From positions 434,001 through 498,000 of the forward strand of contig NZ_JAIEUJ010000002.1 of assembly GCF_019802285.1 (NCBI RefSeq): 64,000 nucleotides of DNA, given 5' to 3'. The position numbers and the translations under genes were made by a program. Below, piece after piece: positions 2,682 through 50,301 of this stretch (position 1 is its first letter; each line of letters starts with the position of its first letter). Source of the stretch: Novilysobacter antarcticus (GTDB taxonomy: Bacteria; Pseudomonadota; Gammaproteobacteria; Xanthomonadales; Xanthomonadaceae). The notes under the pieces were generated by a model. That model searched no databases. It saw only the letters and a program-made list of their open reading frames with translations, and was not told the origin of the DNA.

Positions 2682-3755
2682 TTGTCCATCCAGCCCCAGA
2701 ACGACCGTTTCCTGCGCGCCCTGCGTCGCGAGCCCGTTGACCACACGCCGGTCTGGCTGATGCGCCAGGCCGGGCGCTACCTGCCCGAGTACCGCGCCAC
2801 CCGCGCCCAAGCCGGCAGCTTCATGGGCCTGGCGACGAACCCCGACCTGGCCTGCGAAGTGACCCTACAGCCGCTGCGCCGGTTCCCGCTGGACGCGGCG
2901 ATCCTGTTCTCCGACATCCTCACCATTCCCGACGCGATGGGCCTGGGCCTGCATTTCGTCGAGGGCGAAGGTCCGAAGTTCGAACGCCCGGTCCGCACTG
3001 CCGCCGACATCGCCAAGCTCGGCGTGCCGGACATGGAGAGCGACCTGGGCTATGTGATGGAGGCGATCCGCACCATCCGTCGTGAACTGGACAACAAGGT
3101 GCCGCTGATCGGCTTCTCCGGCAGTCCGTGGACGCTGGCCTGCTACATGGTGGAAGGCAGCGGCAGCAAGGACTTTGCCCGGGTGAAGTCGCTGGCGATG
3201 AACGATCCGGCCGCCATGCACCAGCTGCTGGACGTCACCACGACCGCGGTCATCGCCTACCTGTCGGCGCAGCGCGCCGCTGGTGCGCAGGCGCTGCAAC
3301 TGTTCGACACCTGGGGCGGGGTGTTGTCGCCATCGATGTACCGCGAGTTCTCGCTGCGTTACATGCAGCGCATCGCCGCCGAACTGGAGCGTGGTGAGGG
3401 CGCGGACCGCACTCCGCTGATCCTGTTCGGCAAGGGCAACGGCGCCTACGTCAGTGAGCTGGCCGACACCGGCGCCGAAGGCGTGGGCGTGGACTGGACG
3501 ATCGACCTTGGGGATGCCGTGCGCCGCACCGGCGGCAAGGTGGCGATCCAGGGCAACCTGGACCCGGTCACCCTGTACGCCGATCCGGATGCGATCCGCC
3601 AGCACGTCGGCCGTGCGCTGGACAGCTACCGCGACGGCAACGGCGGCTCGCGCGAAGGGCACGTCTTCAACCTCGGCCATGGCATGTCCCCGGACATGAA
3701 GCCCGAGCATGTCGCCGTGATGGTCGAGGCCGTCCACGAGCTCAGCGCGCGCTGA
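2682..3755 (+). CDS. hemE: uroporphyrinogen decarboxylase (TTG start)
   Basis: Decarboxylates the four acetate side chains of uroporphyrinogen III to give coproporphyrinogen III in heme synthesis. The 357-residue protein shows the family N-terminus [32 protein letters not shown] with the active-site arginines, the [11 protein letters not shown] segment with the catalytic aspartate, [13 protein letters not shown] and the C-terminal [14 protein letters not shown]. The start is TTG at 2682, chosen because it is preceded by GAGGAA at about 9 nt and gives the conserved N-terminus; no in-frame ATG fits. A palindromic element follows 17 nt after the stop. Confidence 0.95.
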
Positions 3756-3772
3756 GTTGGTGGGGGCGGGAA

Positions 3773-3852
3773 CGAACGCCCTTGGATGTGAATGTCCCCC
3801 GGCACCGATGAGGCCGGTGCCTCCTCCTTTACTTCACACCCAAGGGCATTCG
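3773..3852 (+). repeat. palindromic 3'-UTR element, copy 1 (after hemE)
   Basis: An 80-bp near-palindrome. Arms 3773-3792 and 3833-3852 pair at 18 of 20 positions. The 40-nt core between them begins TGTCCCCCGG, has an inner GGCACCG/CGGTGCC stem and ends CCTCCTCCTTTAC. The core differs from copy 2 at only 3 of 40 positions. It begins 17 nt after the hemE stop, and hemE converges here with the histidine kinase gene. There is no T-run after it, so it is not a classical intrinsic terminator. Confidence 0.85.
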
Positions 3853-3933
3853 CACCCGTCGGTCCACCGTCGCGTTCGCTCCAACATCGAAGTGCCCTGC
3901 ATGCGTTACCTGCGGGCCCATCGCGCGTACCGA

Positions 3934-6900
3934 TCAGCGCGCCGCGGCGAGGGCCTCGCGCAGCATTGCCCCGGTCACCGGCTTGCGCAGGAAGCGATCG
4001 AAACCCGCGGCCAGTGCCAGCGGCTCGGCATCCGTGTCGGCACGCGCTGTCACCGCAATCAGCGGTTGGCTGAAGCCCTGCGCCCGCAACTGGCGCGCGA
4101 GCGACAGGCCGTCGAGACCTGGCAGGTCAAGATCCAGCAACGCCGCGTCGAAGCGGGTCACGCTCGACTCGGCCAGCGCCGCCAGCCCGTGGCCGGCGTG
4201 AACCACCGCATGCCCCTGGCCACGCAGCAGGCCGGCAATCACTTCAGCGACGATGGGATCGTCTTCCACCAGAAGCAGCGACAGGCCGGACGCTTCTTCT
4301 GATGCCAGGGTGCCGGTTTGCGCAGACGTCATTTTGGGCGTTGCAAGTGCAGGCGAGTCGGCCGCTTCGCGCAGCGGCTCTTCCGCGATGACCTCCAGCG
4401 GGAGGCGGACTTCAAAACTTGCGCCTTCGCCGGGGGCGCTGGTGACCTCGATCGTGCCGCCCATGGCTGCCGCCAGCTCCTGGCAGATCGCCAGGCCCAA
4501 GCCGCTGCCGCCGTAGCGTGCTGCGGTGCGCAAGCCGTCGGCCTGCTCGAAACGACGGAACAAGCGCGAGACCTGCTCCTCGTTGAGGCCCGGCCCAGTG
4601 TCGCTGACGCACAGGACCACCCCGCCCGCGTCGGCGGGTGCGATTCCCAGCCGGATGGAGCCACGCTCGGTGAACTTCACCGCGTTGCCGATCAGGTTCA
4701 GCAGGATCTGCCGGATCCGCACGGCGTCGCCGCGCACCCGGCGCGGGGTCGCAGGATCGCGGTCCACCACGAACTTCAGGCCACGGGCCTCCACCAGGGG
4801 CGCGCTCATCTCTGCCAGCTCGTCCATCAGGGCGTGCAGATCAAACTCGTCGGTCGCCAGCTCCAGCTTGCCCGACTCGATCCTGGCCAGATCCAGCGCA
4901 TCGTTGACCAGTCGCAACAGGTGCTCGCCGGCGCGGTGGATGGAGGTCGCGTAGCTGCGCTGCCGGGTGTCCAGGTCGGTTCCGAGCAGCAGCTCGCTCA
5001 TGCCCAGCACGCCGGTCATCGGGGTCCGCACCTCATGGCCGAGGGTGGCCAGGAAACGGGTCTTGGCCAGCGACGCCTCATGGGCGACCTCGCGCTCGTG
5101 GTCGGCGCGCTTCCACGCCTGCCGCCGCTCGATCCGTCGACGCGACTCCAGCATCACCCACCACGCCATCAGCAGCAGCAGGCAAACCAGCGCAATCCGC
5201 GCCTGACCCGTCTGCCACCACGGCGGCTGGACCCGGAAGTGCAGCACCTGTTCCGCCGCCTGGTTGCCGACCGCGTCCTGCGCGCGGGCACGCAGGGTGT
5301 ACTGGCCTGGCGCCAGGCCGGCAAAGATCCGCTCACCCTGGGCGCCGTGGTCCACCCAGTCGTGGTCATAGCCGTCCAGCATCGTTACATAGGCATTGGC
5401 CTTGGGCTTGTCGTAGGCGAGCAGGCGAAGCTGCACGCGCAGTTCGCGATCGCCCGGCGCCAGCGCCAGAGGTCCCTGCAGATCCATCGGCACCCAACGG
5501 CCGTCACGCCGCACCTCGAACCCGTCCCAATGCAGTGGCGAGCGGATCGGCGGCAGGTCGTCGGCAAGACTGTCGACCATCACCACACCGCCGTCGGCCA
5601 GGGCCGAAACCATCACCCCATCCGGCGTCTGCACCAGCGTGCGATTGACGAACTCCTGGCTGCGCAGGCCATCGAAGAGGCCGAAGTGACGGGTCTGCCC
5701 GGTGCCCGGGTCCCAGCGATACAGGCCGCGCGGGGTCGAAAGCCAGACCCGACCCTGCTGGTCGACCTGCAAGCCGGCTCCCTCGACGGGCGGGATGCCC
5801 TGCCTCGCGCCGACAGTGTCCACGGCGAACCAGCCGTCACCGCCGCGCCGATAGTGCTCAAGCCCGGAAAGCCGCTGCAACCACAGGTCATCGGCGCCAG
5901 CAAACCCCAGCGCAAATACCCGCCCGTCGCCGCCTATACCAGGCACCGGGTTGAAGCGACCTTCTTCCGCGCTCCATCGCAGCACTCCATCGGCGCCAGC
6001 AAACCATGGCGCGCCACCGGCGTCGAACGCCATCGCGTGATGGTCTCCCACCCCCAGCCCGTGCGCGGCCCCCGGAGGCACAGTCAGCAAAACCCGTCCC
6101 GTGGTCAGCTCACGCTGCTGTACACCGGCGCCGGCGAATGACATCCACAACGTCCCGTCGGGCGCCAGATCCATCAACGTCAATGGACCGGGCAGGGATG
6201 CGTCGGGCGAACCGTCCTGCCCCCAGCGCCGGACTGCGCCTTGCCTGTCGACCCGCACCAGTTCGCGACGCTGGCCGATCCACAGACGGCCGGCGGGATC
6301 TTCGCAAAGTGCGTATGAGCCCATGCCCTGCAACGCTGCGACGGTTTCGGGCTCTGCCGGTATCAGAAGCCCGTCCCGGTCCAGGCGCTCCAGTTCGGCA
6401 CGCACTCCCCCCAGCCAGACCCCGCCGTCCCGGGCCGGTGCAATGGCGCTGTACAGGTCGGCCGACAGGTCATCCTGGTCACGGCTGAACTGGGCGATCC
6501 GGCGCCAGTCCGGCGGCAGGTAGCCCAGCCCGACCCCCGGCACCGGAATCCAGATCGCGCCGCTGTCCTGCTTGACCATCTCGCCGATCGCAATCGCCGG
6601 CCCCTTGGCACCGATCGGCACAGGCACCGGCACCTGACCTTCAACCACGCGCCACACTTGTCGCTGGCTCGAGATCCACAGCTCACCGTCCTCGCCCGGC
6701 AGCATGTTCAGGATCGCGTTGGGCTGCTCGAACATCGCCGACCAGAGCGGCTGCTCCCATCCGCCGTCACCGGTGCGACGGAAAACCCCCTCTGCCGCCC
6801 CCACCCACAGCCCGCCGTCAAATGCCGTCAGCGAATAGATCAACGGGGTCGCGTGCCCCCCGGGCAGCGCCACGCGCTCGAAATCGGTTCCCGTCCACCG

Positions 6901-7506
6901 CGCCAACCCCTTGGTGGTCCCTGCCCAGAGCACGCCCTGCTCGTCCACCACCAGCGTCAGGACGATGTCGGCCGGCAGGCTGCGCGGGTTTTCCCCGCTC
7001 GCCGTGAATCGGGTGATGGTCCCGTCCGCGGCCATCCGCGATACCCCACCGCCGTAGCCACCCATCCAGAGCGCGCCCTCATGGCTCGCCAACGCCCAGA
7101 TGTCGTCGCTGCCGATTTCCGGATGAGTGGCCAGGCGGTAGTGGCGGAAGCTTTCATGGGCGCGGTCGAGCACGCTCAGGCCGTGGCCTTCCGGGGCCAC
7201 CCAGATGCGGCCCTCGGGATCGACGTGGACGAGGGTCACGTAGTTGGCCGAAAGCGAGGCGGGATCGGCCGGATCGTGGCGCCATACCTGCATGCCGACA
7301 CCGTCATAGCGCGCCAGACCGTCGGTGGTGGCGAGCCAGAGAAAGCCGTCGTCGTCGAACTTCAGGCTCTTGACGGTGCTCGATGGGAGGCCGGCGGCCA
7401 CGTCGATATGGCGCAGACGCGGAATCTCGGGCACCCGTGCCCCGGCCTCTGATACCGGCAGCAGCCAACATGCGGCCAACAGCAGCCACGCAATGATGTG
7501 TCGCAT
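3934..7506 (-). CDS. hybrid sensor histidine kinase with two-component propeller and receiver
   Basis: A 1190-residue membrane signalling protein. In order: an N-terminal signal segment (IIAWLLLAACWLLP), about 650 residues of regulator-propeller blades with repeated WLATTDGLARYDG- and LWAGTTKGL-like units, a Y_Y_Y domain (YDHDWVDHG), one membrane helix (ALVCLLLLMAWWVML), a HisKA domain with phospho-acceptor His near residue 824 in LATLGHEVRTPM, an HATPase domain (NAVKFTERG, DTGPGL, GGSGLGLAI), and a C-terminal receiver with acceptor Asp near 1125 in LLDLDLPG. The periplasmic propeller presumably senses a ligand, often polysaccharide-derived in this class; the ligand is unknown. The ATG at 7506 has GGAGGG just upstream. 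There is no separate DNA-binding regulator beside it. Confidence 0.9.
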   Translation of the reverse strand: MRHIIAWLLLAACWLLPVSEAGARVPEIPRLRHIDVAAGLPSSTVKSLKFDDDGFLWLATTDGLARYDGVGMQVWRHDPADPASLSANYVTLVHVDPEGRIWVAPEGHGLSVLDRAHESFRHYRLATHPEIGSDDIWALASHEGALWMGGYGGGVSRMAADGTITRFTASGENPRSLPADIVLTLVVDEQGVLWAGTTKGLARWTGTDFERVALPGGHATPLIYSLTAFDGGLWVGAAEGVFRRTGDGGWEQPLWSAMFEQPNAILNMLPGEDGELWISSQRQVWRVVEGQVPVPVPIGAKGPAIAIGEMVKQDSGAIWIPVPGVGLGYLPPDWRRIAQFSRDQDDLSADLYSAIAPARDGGVWLGGVRAELERLDRDGLLIPAEPETVAALQGMGSYALCEDPAGRLWIGQRRELVRVDRQGAVRRWGQDGSPDASLPGPLTLMDLAPDGTLWMSFAGAGVQQRELTTGRVLLTVPPGAAHGLGVGDHHAMAFDAGGAPWFAGADGVLRWSAEEGRFNPVPGIGGDGRVFALGFAGADDLWLQRLSGLEHYRRGGDGWFAVDTVGARQGIPPVEGAGLQVDQQGRVWLSTPRGLYRWDPGTGQTRHFGLFDGLRSQEFVNRTLVQTPDGVMVSALADGGVVMVDSLADDLPPIRSPLHWDGFEVRRDGRWVPMDLQGPLALAPGDRELRVQLRLLAYDKPKANAYVTMLDGYDHDWVDHGAQGERIFAGLAPGQYTLRARAQDAVGNQAAEQVLHFRVQPPWWQTGQARIALVCLLLLMAWWVMLESRRRIERRQAWKRADHEREVAHEASLAKTRFLATLGHEVRTPMTGVLGMSELLLGTDLDTRQRSYATSIHRAGEHLLRLVNDALDLARIESGKLELATDEFDLHALMDELAEMSAPLVEARGLKFVVDRDPATPRRVRGDAVRIRQILLNLIGNAVKFTERGSIRLGIAPADAGGVVLCVSDTGPGLNEEQVSRLFRRFEQADGLRTAARYGGSGLGLAICQELAAAMGGTIEVTSAPGEGASFEVRLPLEVIAEEPLREAADSPALATPKMTSAQTGTLASEEASGLSLLLVEDDPIVAEVIAGLLRGQGHAVVHAGHGLAALAESSVTRFDAALLDLDLPGLDGLSLARQLRAQGFSQPLIAVTARADTDAEPLALAAGFDRFLRKPVTGAMLREALAAAR

Positions 7507-7626
7507 CCATCCCTCCAGTGCGGCGCGCGCGAGCCCCCGCGCCGTGCGTCCCTTCCCCGGACGCACATTCAATGATTGTGGGCGCCGGGGCAAGTCGCGG
7601 CCCACCACTGCGACGCGCGACCTGTC

Positions 7627-7632
7627 TAGAAT
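7627..7632 (+). promoter_or_regulatory. putative -10 box of the first yceI gene (TAGAAT)
   Basis: TAGAAT, then seven bases, then the ATG at 7640 with no Shine-Dalgarno. It lies in the 133-bp divergent gap shared with the histidine kinase gene. Confidence 0.45.
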
Positions 7633-7639
7633 CGGTCGC

Positions 7640-8398
7640 ATGCACGGCAAACCGCCCACGCCAGACCGCATCGACCCGCGTGTGTCCATCAGCGGCGCGC
7701 GGGTTTGGCATGCGCGCACCCTGGCGATTGCGCTGGGGCTCTGCAGCACGCTGACGGTGGCGATTCCGGCAAGCGCGAAGGACGCCCCGAGCTGGGTGCT
7801 CGATCCGGTCCACACCCGGGTGATGTTCGCCGTCTCCCATGCCGGCTTCTCGCAGGCACTGGGCACCGTATCGGGCAGCACCGGCACCCTTGTGTTCGAT
7901 CCCGACGACTGGGGTCTCACCCGGCTGGACGCCACGGTTCCCCTGGAGCGCGTGGATCTGGGTGACCCGTCGTGGAATCGCGCAGTACTTGCGCCACGCC
8001 TGCTGGATGTCCAGTCATACCCGATGGCCAGGTTCACGTCCGAAAGCGCGTTCCCGAGCGACGACGGTAACGTCCACGTGTGCGGCCAACTGACGCTGCA
8101 CGGCGTTACCAGACCGCTGTGCATGGACGTCACCGTCAATGCGGTCAAGCGGCATCCGATGCCACCGTTCCGACGCACCGCCGGCTTTTCGGCCACCGCC
8201 GTACTGAGCCGAAGCGACTTCGGCATCACCGCCTGGCCGTCGGTCATTGGCGATGACGTGACCCTCCGGATCGAGGCGGAAGCCGTGCGCTCCCGCGTCG
8301 CCGGCGAACCTGTTCACGACGAGGGTGGTGATTCCGGACCGGAGACGGATGCCGAGGTCGAACCCACACCAGAACCCGAACCCGGAGCTGCGCTATGA
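7640..8398 (+). CDS. YceI family periplasmic protein with acidic C-terminal tail
   Basis: A 252-residue exported protein of the YceI family, lipocalin-like beta-barrels that bind long isoprenoid or quinone-like lipids. A long N-terminal segment leads to a signal peptide (TLAIALGLCSTLTVAIPASA). The YceI start follows: SWVLDPVHTRVMFAVSHAGFSQALGTV, then LDATVPLERVDLGD, FTSESAF and VCGQLTLHGVTRPL. After the domain comes an unusual tail rich in Glu and Pro (EVEPTPEPEPGAAL). The ATG at 7640 sits 7 nt after a -10 box. Its stop overlaps the cytochrome b561 start, making the first gene of a three-gene operon. Confidence 0.88.
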   Translation: MHGKPPTPDRIDPRVSISGARVWHARTLAIALGLCSTLTVAIPASAKDAPSWVLDPVHTRVMFAVSHAGFSQALGTVSGSTGTLVFDPDDWGLTRLDATVPLERVDLGDPSWNRAVLAPRLLDVQSYPMARFTSESAFPSDDGNVHVCGQLTLHGVTRPLCMDVTVNAVKRHPMPPFRRTAGFSATAVLSRSDFGITAWPSVIGDDVTLRIEAEAVRSRVAGEPVHDEGGDSGPETDAEVEPTPEPEPGAAL

Positions 8399-8979
8399 GC
8401 CTGAAAAACCCCGTCGACCGCTGGGGTCCAGTGAGCCAGTTCCTGCACTGGACCATCGTGGTGGTGTTCCTTGTCATGGCCGCCATCGGCCTTTCGCTGG
8501 ACAGCCTGCCAAAGTCACCGAGCTACTTCTGGGTGTTCAACCTGCACAAGTCCCTCGGCCTGACCCTTCTCACGCTGGTGGTGATCCGTCTGGCGTGGCG
8601 GCTGTATGCCGGTGCGCCAATCCCGATCGCAAGCATCCCCGCGTGGCAACGGATGCTCGCGCGCGTCACCCATTGGTTGCTGTACGCGCTGATCATCGCG
8701 ATGCCACTCTCCGGCTGGCTCTTCGACTCCGCCAGCGGGCTGCGTCCGCTGCGCTGGTTCAACCTGTTCCAGGTTCCCAAACTCATCGCACCCAATACCG
8801 GTGTGCGCGAAATCGCCCGCGACGCCCACGGCTGGATCTTCTGGGTGCTGGTGCTGTTGATCCTCATGCACGCCGGCGCGGCGCTCTACCACCACTACTT
8901 TGTCGGCGACGCCACGCTGCGGCGGATGCTGCCCGGCCGCCGCACGCCTCCCGCCTCTTCCCAGCGGACTTCCCGATGA
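8395..8979 (+). CDS. cytochrome b561 family membrane protein
   Basis: A 194-residue protein with four membrane helices and a di-heme b561 pattern: QFLHWTIVVVFLVMAAIGL, NLHKSLGLTLLTLVVIRLAWR, VTHWLLYALIIAMPLSGW and IFWVLVLLILMHAGAALYHHYF, each carrying candidate heme-ligand histidines. The family transfers electrons between quinols and acceptors in the inner membrane. Start and stop overlap the two flanking yceI genes (ATGA on both sides), so the three are translationally coupled. The E. coli yceJ-yceI pair is the known parallel. Electron donor and acceptor are not shown by the sequence. Confidence 0.92.
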   Translation: MSLKNPVDRWGPVSQFLHWTIVVVFLVMAAIGLSLDSLPKSPSYFWVFNLHKSLGLTLLTLVVIRLAWRLYAGAPIPIASIPAWQRMLARVTHWLLYALIIAMPLSGWLFDSASGLRPLRWFNLFQVPKLIAPNTGVREIARDAHGWIFWVLVLLILMHAGAALYHHYFVGDATLRRMLPGRRTPPASSQRTSR

Positions 8980-9569
8980 TCACCGCTTCGGGCCCGAACC
9001 GTTCCCGCCGTCGTCCCGGCTTCCTGCAGGTGCTGGCGGCCGGACTGGCCTTCGCCAGCAGCGTCGTACTGGCTGCCGACGATTACGTGCAGGCGCCGGG
9101 ATCGACGCTGACCTTTGCCTCCAGCTTTGAAGGCGAAGTTTTCACCGGCTATTTCGCCAGCTTCACCACCACCATGCGCTTCGACCCGCAGCAGCTGGAG
9201 CAGGCGCGGTTGGAGGTGACCATCCCTTTGGCCAGCGCGACCACGGCCAATCCCGAGCGCGACGAGACCCTGCAGGGCAGTGATTTCTTCAGCAGCAAGC
9301 TGTTCCCGCAGGCGCGCTTTGTCGCCACCCGGTTCCGCCACCTCGGCGAGGACCGCTACGCCGCCGACGGCGCGCTGAGCCTGCGGGACGCCAGTCATCC
9401 GGTGACCCTGACGTTCACCTGGAAGGACGGCGCGGCGCCGGTGCTCACCGGGCGCGCAAGCGTGGATCGACTGGCATTCGGCGTCGGCGGCGGTGACTGG
9501 GCCGACCCGGGCATGATTCCGGCAAAAGTTGCGGTCAGCACGCGGGTCAACCTGATGCCCGCCCCCTGA
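8976..9569 (+). CDS. second YceI family periplasmic protein
   Basis: A 197-residue YceI-type protein with a signal peptide (QVLAAGLAFASSVVLAADD). The family pattern appears as SSFEGEVFTGYFASFTTTMRFDP, RLEVTIPLASATTANPERDE, FPQARFVATRFRHLG and LTGRASVDRLAFGVG. It differs clearly from the first YceI of this operon and begins with GSTLTFASSFEGE rather than the usual D-x-x-H-x-x-x-F opening, so it belongs to another subgroup. It overlaps the cytochrome b561 stop by ATGA at 8976. Function is inferred only as lipid or quinone binding linked to the cytochrome. Confidence 0.88.
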   Translation: MITASGPNRSRRRPGFLQVLAAGLAFASSVVLAADDYVQAPGSTLTFASSFEGEVFTGYFASFTTTMRFDPQQLEQARLEVTIPLASATTANPERDETLQGSDFFSSKLFPQARFVATRFRHLGEDRYAADGALSLRDASHPVTLTFTWKDGAAPVLTGRASVDRLAFGVGGGDWADPGMIPAKVAVSTRVNLMPAP

Positions 9570-9694
9570 CATCCCTCGACCTCGGGTAAACCCCAGCTGG
9601 GGGACGCCCCGAGTGACCGCGACCGGGCGCAGTGTTGGAATGCGCCCATGACCCGCGGTTCGTGGGTTACTGCCCAACTTGCGAGGATCAGGGA

Positions 9695-11284
9695 ATGACT
9701 GTTCTCAGTGCAATCTCAGCGGCGCAGCTGCAACGCATCGACGCCGGCCACGGCCGCCAGCACACCGTCCAGCATGGCGACACGCTGTCGGGGATCGCGA
9801 AGCAATACGGCGTCAGCCTCTCCGCGTTGCGTTCGGCCAATCCGCAGGTCCTGAATCCCAACGTCATCTATCCCGGCGACCGCATCACGGTGCCTGGCGG
9901 CCAGACGCAAGCCGGTTCCGGCCCCGCGCCCGTGCCGGCTGACACCTCCGCGGGAGGCAGTACCGGCGCCAAGGCCGGCTCCACCCAGCTGACGATGGCC
10001 GACTATCAGCGCGCGGCCAACGCCCTCGGCGTCGATGTCGCCACCGTGCGCGCCGTGGCCGAAGTCGAGTCCTCCGGCGGTGGCTTCCTCGCCGACGGTC
10101 GCCCCAAGATCCTGTTCGAGCGGCACATCTTTGCCCGCGAAACCGGCGGCCGCTTCAACGGTTCCCATCCGGGAATCAGCGGCCCGGCAGGTGGTTACGG
10201 CGCCGGCGGTGCACACCAGTACACACGCTTCGAACAGGCATTCGCTCTGGATCCGGTCGCGGCAATGAAGTCGGCCTCCTGGGGCGAGTTCCAGATCATG
10301 GGCTTCAACCACAAGATGGTTGGCTACGACAGCGTGGGCAAGTTCGTCGACGCCATGCGCAGTTCGGCCGGCAGCCAGCTGGACGCGTTTGTCAGCTTCA
10401 TCGAGTCGGCCGGGCTGAAGGGCAAGCTGCAGAACAAGGACTGGGCCGGCTTTGCGCGCGGCTACAACGGTCCGGGCTACGCGAAGAACAATTACGACGG
10501 CAAGATGGCGGCCGCCTATGCCAAGTACGCCGGCAGCAATCCGCCGCCGGTGGCCAGCGGCGGAACCAAGCCAGCCACTGCTCCCGCACCGACGGCGCCT
10601 GCACCGACCGCGCCGGAGTCCGGCACCGGCACCTATTCGGTGCGCTCGGGCGATACGCTCAGCGGCATCGCGCAGAAGCACGGCGTCTCGCTGTCGGCGC
10701 TGGCCGCGGCCAATCCACAGATCCGCAACATCGACCTGATCTTCCCGAACCAGGTGGTCAAGATTCCCGGCGGCGGCAGCACCGGCAATGCGCCCAGGGT
10801 CGGCGGCGACAGCAGGATCGACGCCCCGGCTCCCGTGGGCGGCAGCAGCTCCGATGCCGCGAAGATCGCCGAGAAGTACCTTGGCTGGTGGGCCGGCGAC
10901 CTGAAGGTCAGCGGCCACCTGCCGATGGACCCCAGCGTCCCCAACACGGTCAACTGCGCGAACTTTGTGTCCGCCGTGCTGCAGAAGGCCGGCTTGATCA
11001 ACTTCCACACCAACCTGGTCACCGGCTCCAACAGCGGCAATCCCCAGGCGCTGGGCACGATGCTGAAGGCCGCAGGCTGGACCGTGGTTCCCGCGTCCCA
11101 GGCACGGCCGGGCGACGTAGCGATCGTCAACAACGGCGGTCACGTCGAGTTGGTACACAGCAACAACAACGGCAAGATCACCCTGATCGGTTCCAACAAC
11201 ACCGGTGGCGGATCAGGTCCGCAGAAGGTCAGCTACGGCAACCCGTTCGGCAACGCCTGGTACCTGACCCCGCCACGCAAGTGA
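9695..11284 (+). CDS. LysM / N-acetylmuramidase / LysM / NlpC-CHAP-like peptidoglycan hydrolase
   Basis: A 529-residue multidomain cell-wall hydrolase. A first LysM lies near residues 23-69 (HTVQHGDTLSGIAKQYGVS). A central N-acetylmuramidase (DUF3380-type) domain follows, with AEVESSGGGFL, FERHIFARETGG, SWGEFQIMGFNH and a C-terminal YNGPGYAKNNYDGKMA. A Pro/Ala linker leads to a second LysM (YSVRSGDTLSGIAQKHGVS). The last 160 residues resemble a NlpC/P60 or CHAP-type amidase with Cys in NCANFVSAVL and His in NGGHVELVH. No signal peptide is visible, so export would need a dedicated system, lysis or another start. The frame is open from 9632; ATG 9695 has GAGG about 8 nt before it. A secreted protein gene follows 34 nt later. 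Confidence 0.85.
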   Translation: MTVLSAISAAQLQRIDAGHGRQHTVQHGDTLSGIAKQYGVSLSALRSANPQVLNPNVIYPGDRITVPGGQTQAGSGPAPVPADTSAGGSTGAKAGSTQLTMADYQRAANALGVDVATVRAVAEVESSGGGFLADGRPKILFERHIFARETGGRFNGSHPGISGPAGGYGAGGAHQYTRFEQAFALDPVAAMKSASWGEFQIMGFNHKMVGYDSVGKFVDAMRSSAGSQLDAFVSFIESAGLKGKLQNKDWAGFARGYNGPGYAKNNYDGKMAAAYAKYAGSNPPPVASGGTKPATAPAPTAPAPTAPESGTGTYSVRSGDTLSGIAQKHGVSLSALAAANPQIRNIDLIFPNQVVKIPGGGSTGNAPRVGGDSRIDAPAPVGGSSSDAAKIAEKYLGWWAGDLKVSGHLPMDPSVPNTVNCANFVSAVLQKAGLINFHTNLVTGSNSGNPQALGTMLKAAGWTVVPASQARPGDVAIVNNGGHVELVHSNNNGKITLIGSNNTGGGSGPQKVSYGNPFGNAWYLTPPRK

Positions 11285-11318
11285 TAGACCGGTCGCACCG
11301 GTCCGTCAGGAGACGCGC

Positions 11319-11759
11319 ATGCGAACCCTGTCATTCTTGATGCTCCTACTGATGGGTTTTGCCTGCATGCCAACCAACCACGCCCAGACACCCGCGTTGC
11401 ATATTCCCAATCCCGGTTCCCCCGAGCGCGCTGCGATTCTCGACAGCGCGCGGGCGTCCATCGACGGTGAGATCGGCCGCACCGTGCAGTTTGTGGTCGA
11501 GCGCCTGGCGATCCAGGGCGAGTGGGCATTCCTGTACGCCCACATGCAGGCCAGCGACGGCGGGCCGGTAGACTACGCGCGCACCCCAATGGCGGAGGCG
11601 GCCGAGGCCGGTTTCGTCTCCCAGGTCTATGCCGGCCTGCTGGAGAAGGAAAAAGACCAATGGGTGGTTCGCGCCCAGGCCATCGGTCCGACCGACATGG
11701 CGTGGCAGCCGTGGGCCGCGGACTATGGCGCGCCGGAGGCGCTGTTCAAGCTGGATTGA
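11319..11759 (+). CDS. small secreted protein of unknown function
   Basis: A 146-residue protein with an N-terminal signal peptide (LSFLMLLLMGFACMPTNHAQT). The cysteine lacks a good lipobox, so cleavage by signal peptidase I after NHA is as likely as lipidation. The mature part begins SPERAAILDSARASID and contains VQFVVERLAIQGEWAFLYAHM; I recognise this only as a recurring pattern in uncharacterised secreted proteins. AGGAG lies about 8 nt before the ATG. It starts 34 nt after the muramidase-amidase gene on the same strand, so it may be co-expressed and could act on, or protect against, that enzyme. That role is inference. Confidence 0.7.
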   Translation: MRTLSFLMLLLMGFACMPTNHAQTPALHIPNPGSPERAAILDSARASIDGEIGRTVQFVVERLAIQGEWAFLYAHMQASDGGPVDYARTPMAEAAEAGFVSQVYAGLLEKEKDQWVVRAQAIGPTDMAWQPWAADYGAPEALFKLD

Positions 11760-11816
11760 ACGGGCGGTTTGGCCGGGCTCGCGCAGCGCCCCGGCCAGGT
11801 CCGGCCGGAACGCGCA

Positions 11817-12050
11817 TCACCCGCCTGTGGCCAGCCAGCGCCGGGCGGCGTCCGCGTCGAACGGCCACGCCAGTTCGCGCATCGTGGCCAGGTCGAGCAG
11901 CACCGGGACCCGCGCGCCGTAGCACTTCTCCAGATCCGCATCGTCGTCGATGAACACGCTTTCAAAGTCCGGCACCGCGGCCTGTGCCAGCTCCAGCAGT
12001 GCGAGGTCGCACAGGTGGCAATCATCACGCTGGTAAAGGATCAGCTGCAT
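11817..12050 (-). CDS. glutaredoxin-like (DUF836/thioredoxin-fold) protein
   Basis: A 77-residue protein beginning MQLILYQRDDCHLCDLALLEL, with a CxxC redox pair (C-H-L-C) after the first strand, then VFIDDDADLEKCYGARVPVLL, where the cis-proline follows the RV. This is the minimal thioredoxin fold of the glutaredoxin-related DUF836 family, presumed to reduce disulfides or glutathione mixed disulfides in the cytoplasm. The frame extends upstream to 12095, but the ATG at 12050 begins exactly at the first strand. It converges on the secreted-protein gene to the left and is divergent from the lipoprotein gene to the right. Confidence 0.8.
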   Translation of the reverse strand: MQLILYQRDDCHLCDLALLELAQAAVPDFESVFIDDDADLEKCYGARVPVLLDLATMRELAWPFDADAARRWLATGG

Positions 12051-12124
12051 CTTCTCGGAGCGCCTCTGCAATGGCCCGGGGGCGGCGGCTATCATAGGCG
12101 TTCACTCCGGAGGGCTCCGCAGCC

Positions 12125-12532
12125 GTGACCAGGTTTCTTCTTTCCGCCGCGCTGATGTTGTCACTGGCTGCCTGCAGTCCCGAGCAAGCAGCCGCCACGG
12201 GCGCGCAGGTGGCTGCCTGTGAGGTTGCCGAAACCACCCTGGCCGGCGACTGGCAGCGCACCGGCGAGGCCGGGACCTTCGAGCAGTTTTCACTAGCCAT
12301 GGAAAACGGCGAACGCCGCTTCGACTCGTGGCTGCACGAACGACCGGAAGTCAGCGGGGGTTCGTGGACCTACCAGCCCGACGACTGCCGTCTCGCCCTC
12401 AACGGCGCGGACAGCAACCTGCAGTGGCACTTCAAGGTGTCCGCCGACGAGGCCGGCAACCGGCTCACGCTGAGTCCGCTGGATGCCGGCAGCGGCACGG
12501 TTGACGGAACCTACCAGCGCCTCGCCGACTGA
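12125..12532 (+). CDS. small lipoprotein of unknown function (GTG start)
   Basis: A 135-residue protein starting at GTG 12125, chosen because GGAGGG lies about 10 nt upstream. The N-terminus is a lipoprotein signal with lipobox LAAC at residues 14-17. The mature part contains LAGDWQRTGEAGTFEQF, SGGSWTYQPDDCRLALNG and a C-terminal GTVDGTYQRLAD. This resembles a small lipocalin-like beta fold (G-x-W near the start, paired cysteines), but no family is recognised. No partner is evident from the neighbouring genes. Confidence 0.7.
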   Translation: MTRFLLSAALMLSLAACSPEQAAATGAQVAACEVAETTLAGDWQRTGEAGTFEQFSLAMENGERRFDSWLHERPEVSGGSWTYQPDDCRLALNGADSNLQWHFKVSADEAGNRLTLSPLDAGSGTVDGTYQRLAD

Positions 12533-12635
12533 CCGGCGCACTCGCCGCTGAGCGATCACCCTTGCGCGCCCGATCAACGATCGCCGCAGCTCGAAGCACA
12601 CCTCCACCCACCGCCGTTTCCAGTACTGGATCTCC

Positions 12636-14018
12636 ATGTCCGTCAGCTGTTTCGACCTGTTCAAGATCGGCATCGGGCCGAGTTCCTCGCACACCGTGGG
12701 ACCGATGCGTGCCGCCGCACGATTCATCGAGCGCTGGATCGTCGACAACGGCGACCTTGAGCGCACCGCGCGCGTGCGCGCCGAAGTGTTCGGCTCGCTG
12801 GCGATGACCGGCCGTGGCCACGGTACCGACAAGGCGCTGATGATGGGGCTGGAAGGCCACTGGCCCGACAAAATCGACCCGGACATCATCCCGGCGACGC
12901 TGGAGCGCATCCGCGGCGAGAAACGCATCCGTTTGCAGGGTCGCCATGAGATCGGCTTCGACGAGAAGCACGATCTGATCATGAACAAGCGCCAGAAGCT
13001 GCCGTTCCACACCAATGGCATGCGCTTCACCGCCTACGACGCGGCCGGCGACGTGATCGCCACGCGCGACTACTACTCCGTCGGTGGCGGCTTCGTGGTA
13101 AACGAGGACGAGGCGGCGGAGGACAGGATCGTCGCCGACACCAGCGTCGTGCCGTACCCGTTCGCCTCCGGCGACGAGCTGCTGCTGCGCGCGCGCGACA
13201 GCGGCCTGTCCATCGCCCAGATGATCTACGCCAACGAGCAGGTCTGGCGCAGCACCGACGAGATCGACGCCGGCCTGGACCAGCTCTGGGAGGCGATGAA
13301 GTCCTGCGTGGAACGCGGCATCCGCTCTTCGGGCACATTGCCCGGCGGCCTGCGGGTCACCCGCCGCGCACCCGCGCTGCATGCCGACCTGCAATCACGG
13401 CCCGATGCCGGCCTGGACGATCCGCTGACGATGCTCGACTGGGTCAATCTGTTCGCACTGGCGGTGAATGAGGAAAATGCCGCCGGCGGTCGCGTGGTCA
13501 CCGCGCCGACCAATGGCGCCGCCGGGATCATCCCGGCAGTGCTGCACTACTACGATCGCTTCATTCCCGGCGCCAACATCGAGGGCGTGCGGACCTTCCT
13601 GTTGACCGCCGCGGCGGTGGGCATCCTCTACAAGGAGAACGCCAGCATCTCCGGCGCGGAAGTCGGCTGCCAGGGCGAGGTTGGCGTGGCCTGTTCGATG
13701 GCCGCCGCCGGCCTGACCGCAGCGCTGGGCGGCAGTCCGGAAAAGGTCGAGAACGCCGCCGAGATCGGCATGGAGCACAACCTGGGCCTGACCTGCGACC
13801 CGATCGGCGGTCTGGTCCAGATCCCCTGCATCGAGCGCAACGCCATGGGTTCGGTGAAGGCGATCAACGCCTCCCGCCTGGCCATGCGCGGCGACGGCTC
13901 GCAGAAAGTCAGCCTGGACAAGGTCATCAAGACGATGCGCGACACCGGCCGCGACATGCAGGACAAGTACAAGGAAACCAGCCGGGGCGGGCTGGCGGTG
14001 AACGTCATCGAGTGCTGA
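12636..14018 (+). CDS. sdaA: L-serine ammonia-lyase (L-serine dehydratase)
   Basis: Deaminates L-serine to pyruvate and ammonia using an oxygen-sensitive 4Fe-4S cluster. The 460-residue single-chain enzyme has both halves: the beta domain opening with [24 protein letters not shown] and an alpha domain with [41 protein letters not shown] and [22 protein letters not shown]. The cluster cysteines in EVGCQG, LTCDP and IPCIE are present. The ATG at 12636 starts right at the family N-terminus; the ribosome site is weak. Two palindromic elements lie between its 3' end and the converging hom gene. Confidence 0.95.
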
Positions 14019-14064
14019 CGGGTTAGAAGGGTCGCGGCTGCGCAGTCTGCGCGGTCTTGGAGCA

Positions 14065-14156
14065 CGGGAGCGGGTGCCCTTGGGTGCGAATGTCCCCCGG
14101 CACCGGTGAAGCCGGTGCCTCCTCCTGTACTTCGCTCCCAACGGCACCCACTCCCG
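14065..14156 (+). repeat. palindromic 3'-UTR element, copy 2 (after sdaA)
   Basis: A 92-bp near-palindrome. Arms 14065-14090 and 14131-14156 pair at 23 of 26 positions. The 40-nt core 14091-14130 starts TGTCCCCCGG and ends CCTCCTCCTGTAC, with an inner CACCGG/CCGGTG stem. It starts 46 nt after the sdaA stop, in the same direction as sdaA. The outer stem is longer than that of copy 1 but shares its inner part. Confidence 0.85.
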
Positions 14157-14228
14157 TCGGTGGGGCATCGCGGTGTTCGATAAAGCACAAAGCCGGCCGC
14201 CCCGCACACGGCGGGAATAGGCTGACAG

Positions 14229-14324
14229 ACGTGATCTGCAGGGCTTCCGGGCGAAATAAAGGAGGAGGCCTGCGCCGCAGGCGTGGGCCGGGGGACATTC
14301 GCCGGGAAGCCCTGCAGGTCGCGT
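14229..14324 (-). repeat. palindromic 3'-UTR element, copy 3 (after hom, inverted)
   Basis: A 96-bp near-palindrome read on the minus strand. Arms 14229-14255 and 14298-14324 pair at 24 of 27 positions. The 42-nt core, read on the minus strand, starts TGTCCCCCGG and ends CCTCCTCCTTTAT as in copies 1 and 2. Its inner stem (GCCTGC/GCAGGC) and outer stem are unrelated in sequence to those copies. It begins 37 nt after the hom stop and is oriented with hom. Confidence 0.82.
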
Positions 14325-14361
14325 CCTACTCCCCAGACATCGGCGAAGGGCCGGCTTTTCT

Positions 14362-15546
14362 TCAGTCAGGGGTTGAGCGTGCGATCCGCAGCGCGTCGTC
14401 GAGCAAGCCGGCTGCGGTGACTTCCGCGCCCGCGCCCGGCCCCTGGATCACCAGCGGCTGGTCGCAGTAACGGTCCGACCAGATCGCAACCCGATTGTCG
14501 GTCCCGGCGCCGCCGGCCAACGGATGCCCGCTCGCCAGACTCTCCAACCCGACACTGGCGCGCCCGTCCTGCAGGCGGGCGATGAATCCCAGTCGGGCGC
14601 CGGCGGCCGAGGCGGCCTCGAAGCGCTCGGCCATCGGCGCGTCCAGGCCTTCCAGATCCCCATCAGCTGACGCGCCATCCGCAGCCAGCTCAAGCAGCGA
14701 CTCGACCTCCACCTCGTCACTGGCCAACGGCACGCCGGCAGCGCGGGCGAGGATCAGGATCTTGCGACGCACATCATCGCCGGACAGGTCCTCGCGCGGG
14801 TCCGGCTCGGTATAGCCGGCGTCCTTGGCCTGCAGCACCAGTTTCGAGAAGGGCTGCTGGCCGTCGTAGTGGTTGAACAGCCACGCGAGCGAACCCGACA
14901 GCACCCCCGCAATCGAATGGATGGTGTCGCCGCCGGCCTGCAGGTCGCGGATGTTGCGCAGCAGGGGCAGCCCGGCGCCGACGGTCGCGCTGTCGCCGTA
15001 GCGCGCACTGCCGCGTGCTACGGCGTCGTTGATCGCCTGCCAGCGCTCCAGCGTCGTTCCCAATCCCAGCTTGCACGCGGTCACCACATGGATGCCCTGC
15101 TCCAGCCAATGCGCGTGATGGTCGGCCACCTCGCCGCTGGCGGTCGCGTCGATGACGATGCGATGGCCCGGACCATGGCGGGAGAGCGCCTCCGCGACGC
15201 CGGACAGGCAGGCCAGCCCCGGATCGCCCTGCCATGGACTGCCATCCGACAGGTGGCGTTGGATCGCCGCGGGGCAAAGCCGCTCAGCCCGGAGCGCGCC
15301 ACGGGAATTGCCCGCATGCACCAGCACCAACGAGTCACCGCGCGGCGTTCCTGCCCAGGACGCCAGCCGGGACAACACCGCCGTGCCGACATTGCCGGTG
15401 CCCAGCAGGGCGACGCGGGCCGGAGAGGTCACGCGCATACCGCTCACGCGCGGACCGTCCTGCGATCCCGCCGAAGTGTCGGCATCACCGCCCGAGCGCA
15501 CGAATGCGTCGCGGGTGGACGCCAGAGCGGACACCTGCCCACTCAT
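14362..15546 (-). CDS. hom: homoserine dehydrogenase (monofunctional)
   Basis: Reduces aspartate semialdehyde to homoserine with NAD(P)H, feeding methionine and threonine synthesis. The 394-residue protein has a Rossmann start RVALLGTGNVGTAVLSRL near residues 44-61 after a poorly conserved leader. It has the catalytic-domain landmarks VVTACKLGLG, YGDSATVGAGLPLL, IAGVLSGSLAWLF and AKDAGYTEPDPREDLSGDDV, plus the substrate-loop lysine in VLQAKDAG. It has neither the aspartokinase domain of E. coli ThrA/MetL nor a C-terminal ACT domain, so classic threonine feedback through ACT is unlikely. The ATG at 15546 overlaps the metB stop (ATGA), making it the last gene of the met operon. Confidence 0.9.
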   Translation of the reverse strand: MSGQVSALASTRDAFVRSGGDADTSAGSQDGPRVSGMRVTSPARVALLGTGNVGTAVLSRLASWAGTPRGDSLVLVHAGNSRGALRAERLCPAAIQRHLSDGSPWQGDPGLACLSGVAEALSRHGPGHRIVIDATASGEVADHHAHWLEQGIHVVTACKLGLGTTLERWQAINDAVARGSARYGDSATVGAGLPLLRNIRDLQAGGDTIHSIAGVLSGSLAWLFNHYDGQQPFSKLVLQAKDAGYTEPDPREDLSGDDVRRKILILARAAGVPLASDEVEVESLLELAADGASADGDLEGLDAPMAERFEAASAAGARLGFIARLQDGRASVGLESLASGHPLAGGAGTDNRVAIWSDRYCDQPLVIQGPGAGAEVTAAGLLDDALRIARSTPD

Positions 15547-16763
15547 TGCGCAGCACACGGCGCCAGCTGCGCACGCTTCACACGATCCAGCGCCGCACCA
15601 ATGTCGGCCAGCAGGTCTTCCACGTGCTCGATGCCAACGGACAGGCGCAGCAGTCCGTCGCCAATGCCGGCCTCCGCCCGCGCCTCGGGCGACATGGCCG
15701 AGTGGGTCATCGTCGCCGGATGCGCAATCAGGCTTTCCACCCCACCCAGCGACTCGGCCAGGGTGAAGTACTCCAGGCCGTCGAGGAATGCGCGCACTGC
15801 GGCCTCGCCGCCGGCGCCACTGTCCTCCAGCTCCAGCGAGACCATCGCGCCGAAGCCGTCCTGCTGGCGCGCGGCAACCGCGTGCCCGGGATGGCTTTCC
15901 AGCCCGGGGTAATGCACGGCGCGCACCGCCGGATGCCGGTCGAGAAGGTCCACCAGTGCCGCCGTATTGCGCTCGTGCACGCGCAGGCGCGCATCCAGCG
16001 TGCGCAGGCCGCGCAGGGTGAGGAAACTGTCGAATGGCGAGCCGGTGATGCCCAGACAATTGGCCCACCAGGCCAGGTTGTCGTGCTGGTCCTGCTCCCG
16101 CGCAATCACCGCGCCGCCGACCACGTCGCTGTGGCCGTTGATGTACTTGGTGGTGGAATGCACCACCACATCGGCACCGAACGCGATCGGCTGTTGCAGC
16201 GCCGGCGAGAGGAAGGTGTTGTCGACCACGACCAGCGCGCCGGCCGCGTGCGCGGCTTCGGTCACGAAACGCAGGTCGGTCACGCGCAGCAGCGGATTCG
16301 ATGGCGTCTCGATCCAGACCACTGCCGGCCCCAGTGCCAAGGCGTCGGCCAGCGCGCGGGGCGAGGTCAGGTCCACCGTGGTCAGTTCGAACGCGCCCTT
16401 CTCGGCCAGCGCGTTGAACAAGCGCCAGCTGCCGCCATACGCATCGTGCGGCACCACCAGCCGGTCACCGGGCTTGAGCAAGGCGTTCAGCACCAGCGCG
16501 ATCGCGGCCATGCCGGTCGCCGTGACCACCGCGCCGGCGCCACCTTCCAGCTCGGCCAGCGCCTCGGCCAGCAGGTCGCGGGTCGGATTGCCGCTGCGGG
16601 TGTAGTCGTAGGTGCGTTTGTCGTTGAAGCCGGCAAAGCTGAAGTTGGACGACAGCACCAGCGGCGGGGTCACCGCGCCGAAGGCCTCGTCGCGGTCGAT
16701 GCCCGCGCGCACAGCGGTGGTACAGCGACGGGCGGGGCGAGCCCCGGCGTGCTGCGCACTCAT
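15543..16763 (-). CDS. metB: cystathionine gamma-synthase / O-succinylhomoserine (thiol)-lyase
   Basis: PLP enzyme that condenses O-acylhomoserine with cysteine to give cystathionine, or with sulfide to give homocysteine. The 406-residue protein has the Cys/Met-metabolism family features: TPPLVLSSNF, YDYTRSGNPTR, the WIETPSNPLL loop, VVVDNTFLSP and the PLP-lysine motif HSTTKYINGHSDV near residue 206, plus TLRGLRTLDAR. The sequence alone does not decide between transsulfuration and direct sulfhydrylation. It overlaps metX upstream (16760-16763) and hom downstream. Confidence 0.93.
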   Translation of the reverse strand: MSAQHAGARPARRCTTAVRAGIDRDEAFGAVTPPLVLSSNFSFAGFNDKRTYDYTRSGNPTRDLLAEALAELEGGAGAVVTATGMAAIALVLNALLKPGDRLVVPHDAYGGSWRLFNALAEKGAFELTTVDLTSPRALADALALGPAVVWIETPSNPLLRVTDLRFVTEAAHAAGALVVVDNTFLSPALQQPIAFGADVVVHSTTKYINGHSDVVGGAVIAREQDQHDNLAWWANCLGITGSPFDSFLTLRGLRTLDARLRVHERNTAALVDLLDRHPAVRAVHYPGLESHPGHAVAARQQDGFGAMVSLELEDSGAGGEAAVRAFLDGLEYFTLAESLGGVESLIAHPATMTHSAMSPEARAEAGIGDGLLRLSVGIEHVEDLLADIGAALDRVKRAQLAPCAAQ

Positions 16764-17821: not shown

Positions 17822-18009
17822 GACGGCTATCCAAAGTGGCGGGGAGCCATCGAGGGATGGCTGCCAACGCACACTGGACCGTGCCGGCAACCATCTTCCG
17901 GCCACCGCTGGAGCGCGGCGCCGCAGGATTTGGCACCCGTTCGCGGCTTGCGCTGCGATGGGTTGCCCCGGCTTCAAAGGGCCTGTCCCTCTGCCGGTCT
18001 CGATGGGTG
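17822..18009 (-). promoter_or_regulatory. SAM-I riboswitch (aptamer about 17888-18009) and expression platform
   Basis: Read on the minus strand, the aptamer carries the S-box conserved blocks in order: P1 5' strand CACCCATC (18009-18002), AGAGGGAC, GGCCC...GAAGCC, GGCAACC, GGTGCCAAATCCTGC, GGAAGATGG and the P1 3' strand GATGGTTG (17895-17888). P1 pairs at 7 of 8 positions. The platform (17822-17887) contains GGCAGCCATC, which can pair over 10 positions (one G-U) with the 3' half of P1. It can alternatively pair with GATGGCT or with the weak GGATAGC just before the metX ATG. High SAM should therefore lower metX translation. There is no U-run, so translational control is more likely than termination. 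Confidence 0.92.
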
Positions 18010-49369: not shown

Positions 49370-49629
49370 CGACTTTCAGGGGCAAATTCACCAACGGGAT
49401 CAATGGCTTGCAGAACACTTGAGAGTTCAATTCAAGACTTGGCCACTAAGCGTTGTTTCGTCTCATATTTTGAGACGCAGCGCACTGGACAAGTGAACAA
49501 AGCGCAAACTTCGTCTTCACGCAGCCTTAATGCTGCGCTGCAGAAATCTGCGCTGAATGAACAGGGCGGACTCACGCGCACGGCATCGCCGGCGCGATTC
49601 CCGGCCGGCGGGAGAAGCAAAGAAAAAGT
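49370..49629. other. non-coding stretch between the dcw promoter and rnpB
   Basis: No gene is seen. It contains a perfect CGTCTCA/TGAGACG hairpin with a 5-nt AT loop at 49459-49477, a GCAGC/GCTGC dyad near 49521 and a repeated CTGCGCTG near 49532 and 49547. None has a T-run. The bases next to the rnpB 3' end read TTTTTCTTT on the minus strand, a likely rnpB terminator tail. Confidence 0.5.
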
Positions 49630-50010
49630 GGCGGAGCCGGCCGATAAGCCGGGTTCTGTCGTGGACAGTCATTCCTCTAGGCGCATCGTCGCCGATACGC
49701 TCAAGCAACCTACCCGGACCCGACGCGGGCCGCGCCATGAGTCCCTATTTGGTCTTGCTCCCGGTGGGGTTTGCCATGCCGGTCTGTTGCCAGACTCGCG
49801 GTGCGCTCTTACCGCACCGTTTCACCCTTGCCACGCATCGCGCATTCTTGCGAACACCCGACCGTTCGGCGGTCTGCTCTCTGTTGCACTTTCCGTCGGC
49901 TCGCGCCGCCCAGGCGTTACCTGGCACCGTGCCCTGTGGAGCCCGGACTTTCCTCGGCACCGCAACGGATTGCTCCGCTGCGATGACGCGACTGTCTGGC
50001 CGACTCCGCC
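49630..50010 (-). ncRNA. rnpB: RNase P RNA, class A
   Basis: The catalytic RNA of RNase P, which trims tRNA 5' ends. Read on the minus strand it has the conserved blocks in order: CCAGACAGTCGC at the 5' end, GAGGAAAGTCCGGGCTCC, the GGTGCCAGGTAACGCC region, GTGCAACAGAGAGCAGACCGCC, GGCAAGGGTGAAACGGTGCGGTAAGAGCGCACC, CAAACCCCACCGGGAGCAAG, and near the 3' end GAGGAATGACTGTCCACGACAGAACCCGGCTTATCGG. Helix P1 closes 13 bp between 50010-49998 and 49642-49630 (one G-U), fixing both ends at about 381 nt. Open frames crossing it are not genes. Confidence 0.97.
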
Positions 50011-50022: not shown

Positions 50023-50232
50023 CCGGTTGCGGGTGCGCTTCGGTGGCTTGTGCCGTTAAGTACGCACCGGGAGTTCAGCGAGAACTGATGGAAGGCTGGG
50101 TGGTTTGCGCGAGCCGACGTCTCGGAATGCGTCTGCTGGGTGCCTTAATCCGCGCTTGGGGGATGTGGCGGAGGCGTTTGATGGCGGCGGGGCGGCGGGG
50201 CGGCGCGGAGGAGCTTCATGGATGCGTAGGCG

Positions 50233-50301
50233 GCGCCTGCCGCGAATCCCGCTCAGCCGCTCCACGATATTCGCTTGGTGAGCGGGACTCCCGACAGGCG
50301 C
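50233..50301. repeat. long two-stem palindrome between rnpB and rsmI
   Basis: Outer arms GCGCCTG (50233-50239) and CAGGCGC (50295-50301), inner arms TCCCGCTCA (50247-50255) and TGAGCGGGA (50279-50287), both exact. The loop is 23 nt. It lies in a 422-bp gap (50011-50432) where no gene is seen. There is no T-run on either side and no sequence resemblance to the element after hemE; a REP-like sequence or 3'-end structure of rsmI is possible. Confidence 0.6.

Follow-up and report, generated by a model that had tools for sequence, protein, structure and literature searches.

We analysed a 64,000-nucleotide window of the Novilysobacter antarcticus genome (assembly GCF_019802285.1, contig NZ_JAIEUJ010000002.1, positions 434,001 to 498,000; "the window" is this whole stretch, and coordinates are counted from its first letter) that holds three palindromic elements, copies 1 to 3. 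The three copies are members of an extensive family of paired stem-loops that occurs in many beta- and gammaproteobacteria. The members share one design, in which a roughly 30-bp outer stem of free sequence encloses an internal loop with two boxes, and an inner hairpin, again of free sequence, lies between the boxes. Box 1 is TGTCCCCC and is closed by GG; box 2 is closed by CC and then reads TCCTCCTTTAY. We call the strand with these C-rich loop letters the C-form and its reverse complement the G-form. We scored the window with R1, a covariance model made from 36 copies outside the window's three (its training rows include L001, L007 and L013 of the same genome). The results showed the three copies, where an earlier note on this DNA had placed them, as the three highest matches (74-79 bits):

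Copy 1: 3763 to 3862, G-form on the minus strand, solo type A hairpin, R1 75.5 bits on the plus strand
Box 1 of copy 1: 3793 to 3802, plus strand, letters TGTCCCCCGG
Box 2 of copy 1: 3820 to 3831, plus strand, letters CCTCCTCCTTTA
Composite: 14061 to 14327, no strand, type A hairpin, spacer and type B hairpin, inverted
Copy 2: 14061 to 14160, G-form on the minus strand, type A hairpin, R1 79.1 bits on the C-form (plus) strand
Box 1 of copy 2: 14091 to 14100, plus strand, match to the box pattern
Box 2 of copy 2: 14118 to 14129, plus strand, a single difference, CCTCCTCCTGTA
Spacer of the composite: 14161 to 14225, between the hairpins, conserved less among relatives than any other part of the unit
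Copy 3: 14226 to 14327, G-form on the plus strand, type B hairpin, R1 74.4 bits on the C-form (minus) strand
Box 2 of copy 3: 14257 to 14268, minus strand, match to the box pattern
Box 1 of copy 3: 14288 to 14297, minus strand, match to the box pattern

The next three R1 matches in the window (24.5, 21.7 and 19.7 bits) are the reverse complements of copies 1-3, and the best score at an unrelated place was 18.8 bits. Genome-wide matches to the composite locus are bounded by 14065-14326. Box 2 (CCTCCTCCTTTAYTTC, up to 3 mismatches) was found 3 times in the window against 0.16 expected, a count reached in 0 of 100 shuffles. Box 1 (ATGTCCCCCGG, up to 1 mismatch) was not unusual by itself, with 4 matches against 1.95 expected (12 of 100 shuffles). 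Counted from the boxes outward as Watson-Crick pairs, the arms pair at 18/20, 23/26 and 24/27 positions, the same values as in the earlier note, and the stems of copy 3, which is written on the minus strand, indeed bear no relation to the stems of copies 1 and 2. The predicted fold energies of all three, on either strand, were far lower than those of shuffled sequences (z -4.6 to -8.8, 0/200 shuffles each), and copy 3 reached -74.8 kcal/mol on its G-form (+) strand compared with -60.7 kcal/mol on the other.

Pairing was measured in A1, a gapless alignment of 36 dissimilar copies with a 17-nt inner part, from which near-duplicates and other inner lengths were excluded and in which the boxes are invariant by construction. 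The stem positions were paired in 79.7% of cells compared with 54.3% in shuffles, 36 of the 38 pairs were changed on both sides (28.6 in shuffles), and double changes filled 343 cells (108 in shuffles). None of 500 shuffles reached these pairing and covariation values, and slid partners gave 36-47%. The stem sequence is free and the pairing is selected. Pairing kept without sequence had been claimed in the earlier note, and its placing of the boxes in an internal loop between the two stems was supported as well. However, its explanation by selection for structure holds in part only: in Xanthomonadaceae the hairpins moved inside a transposable unit (see below), and repeat spread therefore shaped the pattern as well as selection. 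Relaxed box matching showed few variable positions, mainly position 6 of box 1 and positions 6 and 11 of box 2, plus letters of the closing pairs, in a set of which most copies were originally found by exact boxes, so that it lifts only in part the limit that exact-box copies put on a proof of box invariance.

The mismatches in the stems pointed to one strand. In 123 non-redundant elements, isolated outer-stem mismatches on the strand written in the earlier note were C.A or A.C in 148 cases and G.T or T.G in 16. Over all counted cells of the outer stem the numbers were 225 and 74, and in the inner stem 52 and 20; the count omits offsets 1, 2, 5 and 7 of the outer stem, four positions close to the boxes that are mismatched in most copies. 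Strand-symmetric mutation predicts equal C.A and G.T, so the bias points to one strand, and since C.A on the written strand is G.U on the opposite strand, we infer that the kept fold is most likely the G-form, GAARUAAAGGAGGAGG - inner hairpin - CCGGGGGACAUUC, with the internal loop RUAAAGGAGGA / GGGGACA. The G-form also gave the more stable predicted RNA fold in 119 of the 123 elements, folded as strings that carry consensus boxes, with one variant letter lost in some. The arms pair on the strand written in the earlier note, but the fold that is kept most likely lies on its reverse complement. The molecule under selection is likely RNA, with single-stranded DNA as the alternative.

No known RNA family in Rfam accounts for the copies: at gathering thresholds the window matched only RNase P and the S-adenosylmethionine (SAM) riboswitch, both elsewhere in the window, and seven loci searched at E<=10 gave chance-level matches only. 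A short open reading frame (ORF) led by AAAGGAGG of the G-form was also rejected, as no start codon at a constant distance was seen by eye, with no tool used. Outward promoters in the spacer would sit in the part of the unit with the lowest conservation.

The family is not limited to the window. The 2.78-Mb source genome (G000) contains 20 matches to the strict two-box pattern and 0 to the reversed pattern, and R1 finds 24 copies there, which disposes of the earlier note's own doubt that the genome might hold these three only. The strict pattern was present in 7 of 60 genomes, the source included; six belong to one genus and the seventh to a different genus of the family. The covariance-model search that the earlier note had proposed was run on 31 genomes; beside the source it found 31-38 copies in four congeners (38 in G001, 35 in G006, 38 in G007, which is Lysobacter concretionis Ko07, and 31 in G008, which is Lysobacter sp. 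A03), 13 in G018 and 2 in G003. A lone weaker match was seen in G040, from a different family of the same order (E 3e-7, no strict-pattern match), and the other 23 genomes, including four congeners, had zero copies.

In the GTDB genome collection the strict pattern gave at least 118 stretches. Burkholderiales, Rhodocyclales and Xanthomonadaceae were among the matches listed, as were the genera Hydrogenophaga, Rubrivivax, Rhodoferax, Variovorax, Aquabacterium, Sulfurisoma, Stenotrophomonas, Pseudoxanthomonas, Luteimonas and others. Whole-genome searches of 25 such genomes found 1 to 67 strict copies per genome, with 20 in Luteimonas terricola, many of them near-identical. The 67 copies were found in JAHREJ01 records titled Bacillus subtilis SK7B5 (e.g. 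L065, L092, L100, L148 and L160); because these copies are of Stenotrophomonas type, the assembly is probably mislabelled or mixed. Viral contigs held one stretch with the strict pattern, and distant BLAST searches of plasmids and phages (Luteimonas unit) and of plasmids (window composite) gave no match, so phage or plasmid carriage is disfavoured.

The usual arrangement is a convergent doublet of two unlike hairpins with 107-165 nt between the cores. Among the 43 two-hairpin groups of the wide set with both neighbours called, 40 had the C-form first, 2 were reversed and 1 had both hairpins on the same strand. In Lysobacter, type A (CACCG inner stem) has type B as its partner, and two further types are partners of each other; subfamilies exist within a genome. 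Copies 2 and 3 together form one composite, 14061-14327. At the hemE locus, compared without the misplaced rows L250, L251, L230 and L231, A and B are both present in G001 and G006, A stands alone in G000 (copy 1), B stands alone with an A stub in G008, and neither half is present in G007, G002, G003 and G004. Because the orthologous place holds both halves in G001 and G006, this comparison identifies copy 1 as the remnant of a composite whose partner was lost. The earlier note had described three separate elements; the three copies are there, but the usual unit is the convergent pair. A different layout was seen in L. concretionis (G007:C1:118171-118795; L023, L029, L215 and L222), where three hairpins of the same type form a direct array with a spacing of about 261 nt, unlike the inverted pairs.

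In L. terricola the repeat extends past the hairpins to GGTTCATCTCCCAACTCCGGGG at one end and to an inverted GGTTCTTCTCCCAACTGAGGGA at the opposite end; it measures about 400 bp and lies beside A/T runs. We searched 212 Xanthomonadaceae copy groups, de-duplicated by their outer flanks with units of identical hairpins kept, and 8 of them had GGTTCWTCTCCC-type terminal repeats at both ends (at least 12/15 at each). Exact 8/8 A/T-rich flank duplications were found in two of these two-ended units, L210 of L. concretionis (TTATTTCT; 238 bp, one hairpin) and L298 of L. terricola (TTTTTCTT). A third, L244 (Lysobacter, 365 bp, two hairpins), had a 7/8 duplication, and the flanks of the remaining five agreed at 1-6 of 8 positions. 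Three units with flank identity of at least 7/8 compare with 0.39 expected with shuffled partners. One-sided terminal-repeat matches of at least 12/15 were present in 24 of 169 Xanthomonadaceae flanks and in 0 of 169 reversed ones (29 and 4 at 11/15), and the source genome holds relics of the repeat, e.g. beside L011 and L003.

A full ISL3 insertion sequence, with a 413-aa transposase (PF01610, E 2e-68), was found in L. concretionis. It has the ends GGTTCTTC and is flanked on both sides by TTTTTTAT, and its ends share 19 and 17 of 24 bases with the end of the repeat unit. From the two-end repeats, the duplications and the ISL3-like ends, all features of sequence, we concluded that the Xanthomonadaceae hairpins travelled in a miniature inverted-repeat transposable element (MITE), probably of ISL3 type, a non-autonomous unit of 240-410 bp with one or usually two hairpins.

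Other drivers were rejected. A driver gene beside the copies is not seen, as an all-against-all comparison of the six-frame ORFs of the 118 strict-pattern stretches listed, crude and judged by eye, gave no recurring transposase that we recognised. A retroelement of the retron or group II type is not supported either: reverse transcriptase (PF00078) was found in a single, copy-free genome among 16, and in 0 of the 7 carriers searched. In Hydrogenophaga intermedia 18 places share flanks past the hairpins, with no clear symmetric end seen. The composites there (L315-L332) share flanks like TTTCGCTCGTTGCACCTCGCG and TTTCTCCGG, which lie some 50 nt beyond the boxes and could mark where a different carrier ends.

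We compared 13 sites of the source genome with its relatives, and the orthologous place was occupied in G001, G006 and G008 at 13/13; the loci of the relatives were chosen because they hold copies, and all 13 sites found their match. A fourteenth site found by the model only (G000:C2:208125) lies outside this comparison. The identity between G000 and G001 was 219/224 in box 1, 269/275 in box 2, 390/430 in the inner part, 1142/1308 in the outer stems, 401/561 in the spacer and 3323/4103 in the flanks, which are largely coding. The comparison with G006 gave similar identities, with boxes at about 98% and spacer at about 70% for both relatives. With G008, the nearest relative, the values were 197/211 (box 1), 236/240 (box 2), 368/398 (inner part), 1103/1212 (outer stems), 434/539 (spacer) and 3589/4109 (flanks). 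As boxes and stems lie above the flanks and the spacer below them, the hairpins are held tighter than the neighbouring genes while the spacer decays. In sequence, terminal repeats and spacer decay where stems and boxes persist.

The copies of the window lie at gene ends, with the following neighbours:

hemE: 2682 to 3755, plus strand, TIGR01464 above cut-off; stops 8 nt short of copy 1
L-serine ammonia-lyase gene: 12636 to 14018, plus strand, TIGR00720 above cut-off; 43 nt from its end to copy 2
ORF with a ThrA-type homoserine dehydrogenase part (residues 219-564): 14362 to 16068, minus strand, NF006959 at 288 bits, below that model's cut-off

The 3' end of the last ORF points at copy 3. A SAM riboswitch (17888-18009, minus strand, 71.1 bits) precedes minus-strand ORFs that resemble methionine-pathway genes, a likeness judged by eye and, for 14362-16068, by the homoserine dehydrogenase match; copy 3 sits at the distal end of this gene row. 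Elsewhere in the window, a palindrome at 50231-50303, near the RNase P RNA gene (49629-50007, minus strand), scores 18.8 bits with R1 on both strands. It looks like an ordinary terminator stem and is outside the three family matches.

In the genus set, whose counts include orthologous sites of several genomes, 29 of the 47 placed elements have convergent neighbour genes and 0 have divergent ones. The wide set (n=104) had 35 convergent, 63 co-directional and 6 divergent placements; besides these, 37 elements lay at the edge of a contig and 7 within a called ORF. The neighbour genes were called by a purpose-made small hexamer gene finder, and the divergent share shifts with its settings. Other settings gave 10 divergent among 72 copy regions compared with 38 among 121 copy-free regions (Fisher p 0.006), and a third setting gave 15 of 80 groups; for the Lysobacter set only two copy-free regions were available for comparison. 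In the wide set, therefore, the copies avoid divergent regions only modestly, and this may reflect the choice of target.

The explanation that we tentatively prefer, with confidence a little short of even, is that these are MITE-borne paired structured-RNA elements which have outlived their carrier, have been retained and would act in transcripts at gene ends. An ISL3-family transposase would have moved the unit into A/T-rich 8-bp sites, often the T-runs at gene ends. A transcript entering the composite from either side would meet the C-form hairpin first and the G-form second. The G-form RNA at transcript ends may then limit or stabilise read-through from both sides; as a rigid rod with a purine-rich loop it could mark or protect RNA ends and limit antisense read-through. 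The invariant purine loop could be read by a conserved factor or could fold by itself, and the letters would allow a two-tier G-quadruplex between the stems. Fold, strand and retention were read from the aligned sequences; activity, factor and quadruplex are proposals beyond them. A wider version, possible but doubtful, is that of a transposon-dispersed, host-retained class of two-stem RNAs, whose invariant purine internal loop RUAAAGGAGGA/GGGGACA would be read by a conserved factor common to Burkholderiales, Rhodocyclales and Xanthomonadaceae, and which would be installed as matched pairs, with different transposon ends in each lineage, so that transcripts from either side carry one.

Several observations weigh against this explanation. 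Of the 212 copy groups, 204 are without two recognisable ends and most two-ended units are without an exact duplication. A full ISL3 transposase was found in 2 of 15 genomes searched, G007 and G009, the latter without copies; six of the others gave weak partial matches and seven none, and L. terricola, which was recently invaded, had no match in this search. The carrier is not identical everywhere, because the Hydrogenophaga units have other limits. Single halves get lost, and four congeners do without any copy. At sites absent from G000, compared between G001 and G008, the boxes are no better kept than the flanks (47/59 and 69/84 compared with 725/925), on few sites and less clearly. The placement at gene ends may also be target choice alone, because A/T-rich sites in GC-rich genomes would often be terminator T-runs.

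The patchy presence across the genus, the recent burst in L. terricola and the subfamilies within one genome would also fit a purely selfish element, in which stems and boxes are bound by a transposase or a host factor for movement and their conservation reflects spread and not use by the host. We consider this unlikely, though still to be reckoned with: the 13 sites are old and common to four species, their terminal repeats are mostly gone, and the boxes are kept above largely coding flanks. Less probable again is a bidirectional terminator or rut-like Rho site, in which C-rich C-form loops would load Rho and the second hairpin would stop transcription. The C-form-first order, the C-rich loop letters and the position shortly behind stop codons agree with it, but the wobble bias indicates that it is not the C-form fold that has been kept, and the stems of the window copies have no U-run directly behind them. 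Very improbable is a DNA-level site, where a protein that organises the chromosome would bind the palindromes as duplex or cruciform, a role proposed for bacterial interspersed mosaic elements (BIMEs). The inverted doublets at many sites per genome and the boxes, invariant in model-found copies save rare changes, suit it, but the 9:1 excess of C.A over G.T on a single strand is unexpected, with single-stranded DNA of one strand remaining compatible.

If the preferred reading of retained, MITE-borne RNA elements is right, many gene ends of environmental and of some clinical proteobacteria have a structured RNA element in common that annotation has missed, and the family would illustrate cleanly how a host can keep transposon cargo once the carrier has decayed. 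The strand bias of the mismatches would predict which RNA works, and near-identical boxes across two proteobacterial classes would imply a shared partner.

Among known repeats, enterobacterial repetitive intergenic consensus (ERIC), RU and Correia-type repeats are transcribed, foldable, intergenic and 100-250 bp long, and their sequence is kept along the unit. The present elements differ in that the loop boxes alone are constant. The 'Cuckoo' CCUCCUCCC small RNAs of Alphaproteobacteria carry a C-rich, anti-Shine-Dalgarno-like motif in stem-loops; in the present family the motif lies in an internal loop instead, and the wobbles favour the complementary G-rich strand. Repetitive extragenic palindromic (REP) sequences have a head motif of the GTAG/GGAG type, and no constant REP-type head was seen in our alignments, where the stems vary with pairing kept. 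The REP-associated tyrosine transposase (RAYT, Y1; PF01797 at E<=1e-3) was missing in the carriers G000, G001, G003 and G008, that is, in 4 of 7. It was present in the carriers G006 (weakly), G007 and G018 and in three of the four copy-free congeners. With the stems not conserved either, membership in the RAYT system fails, and the earlier note's statement that these are not simple REP copies holds in this sense.

REP doublets forming hairpins (REPINs) and BIMEs are moved by RAYT transposases, as set out in sections of PMC3116915. The likeness to them, as far as those sections go, is in the inverted doublet as the mobile unit, a feature that is present here, in singlets as remnants, in hairpins of the single strand, in extragenic places and in tandem clusters in some genomes (PMC3116915). 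However, each half here is a two-stem hairpin of about 100 nt with invariant internal-loop boxes and free stems, where REP stems are conserved, and the Xanthomonadaceae copies have terminal repeats outside the hairpins. No description of the element was found in the literature searched, judged by titles and the openings of abstracts, nor in text matches within PMC3733652 and PMC12306157. With ISL3-like MITEs the elements share the short non-coding unit, the terminal inverted repeats, A/T-rich duplications in some copies and ends that resemble those of the L. concretionis ISL3 element. They differ from these in long covarying stems and invariant loop boxes that outlast the terminal repeats, and in the other ends of the Hydrogenophaga hairpins. 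The doublet layout and the remnants therefore recall REPINs, and the ends, judged by their letters, make the Xanthomonadaceae copies a MITE.

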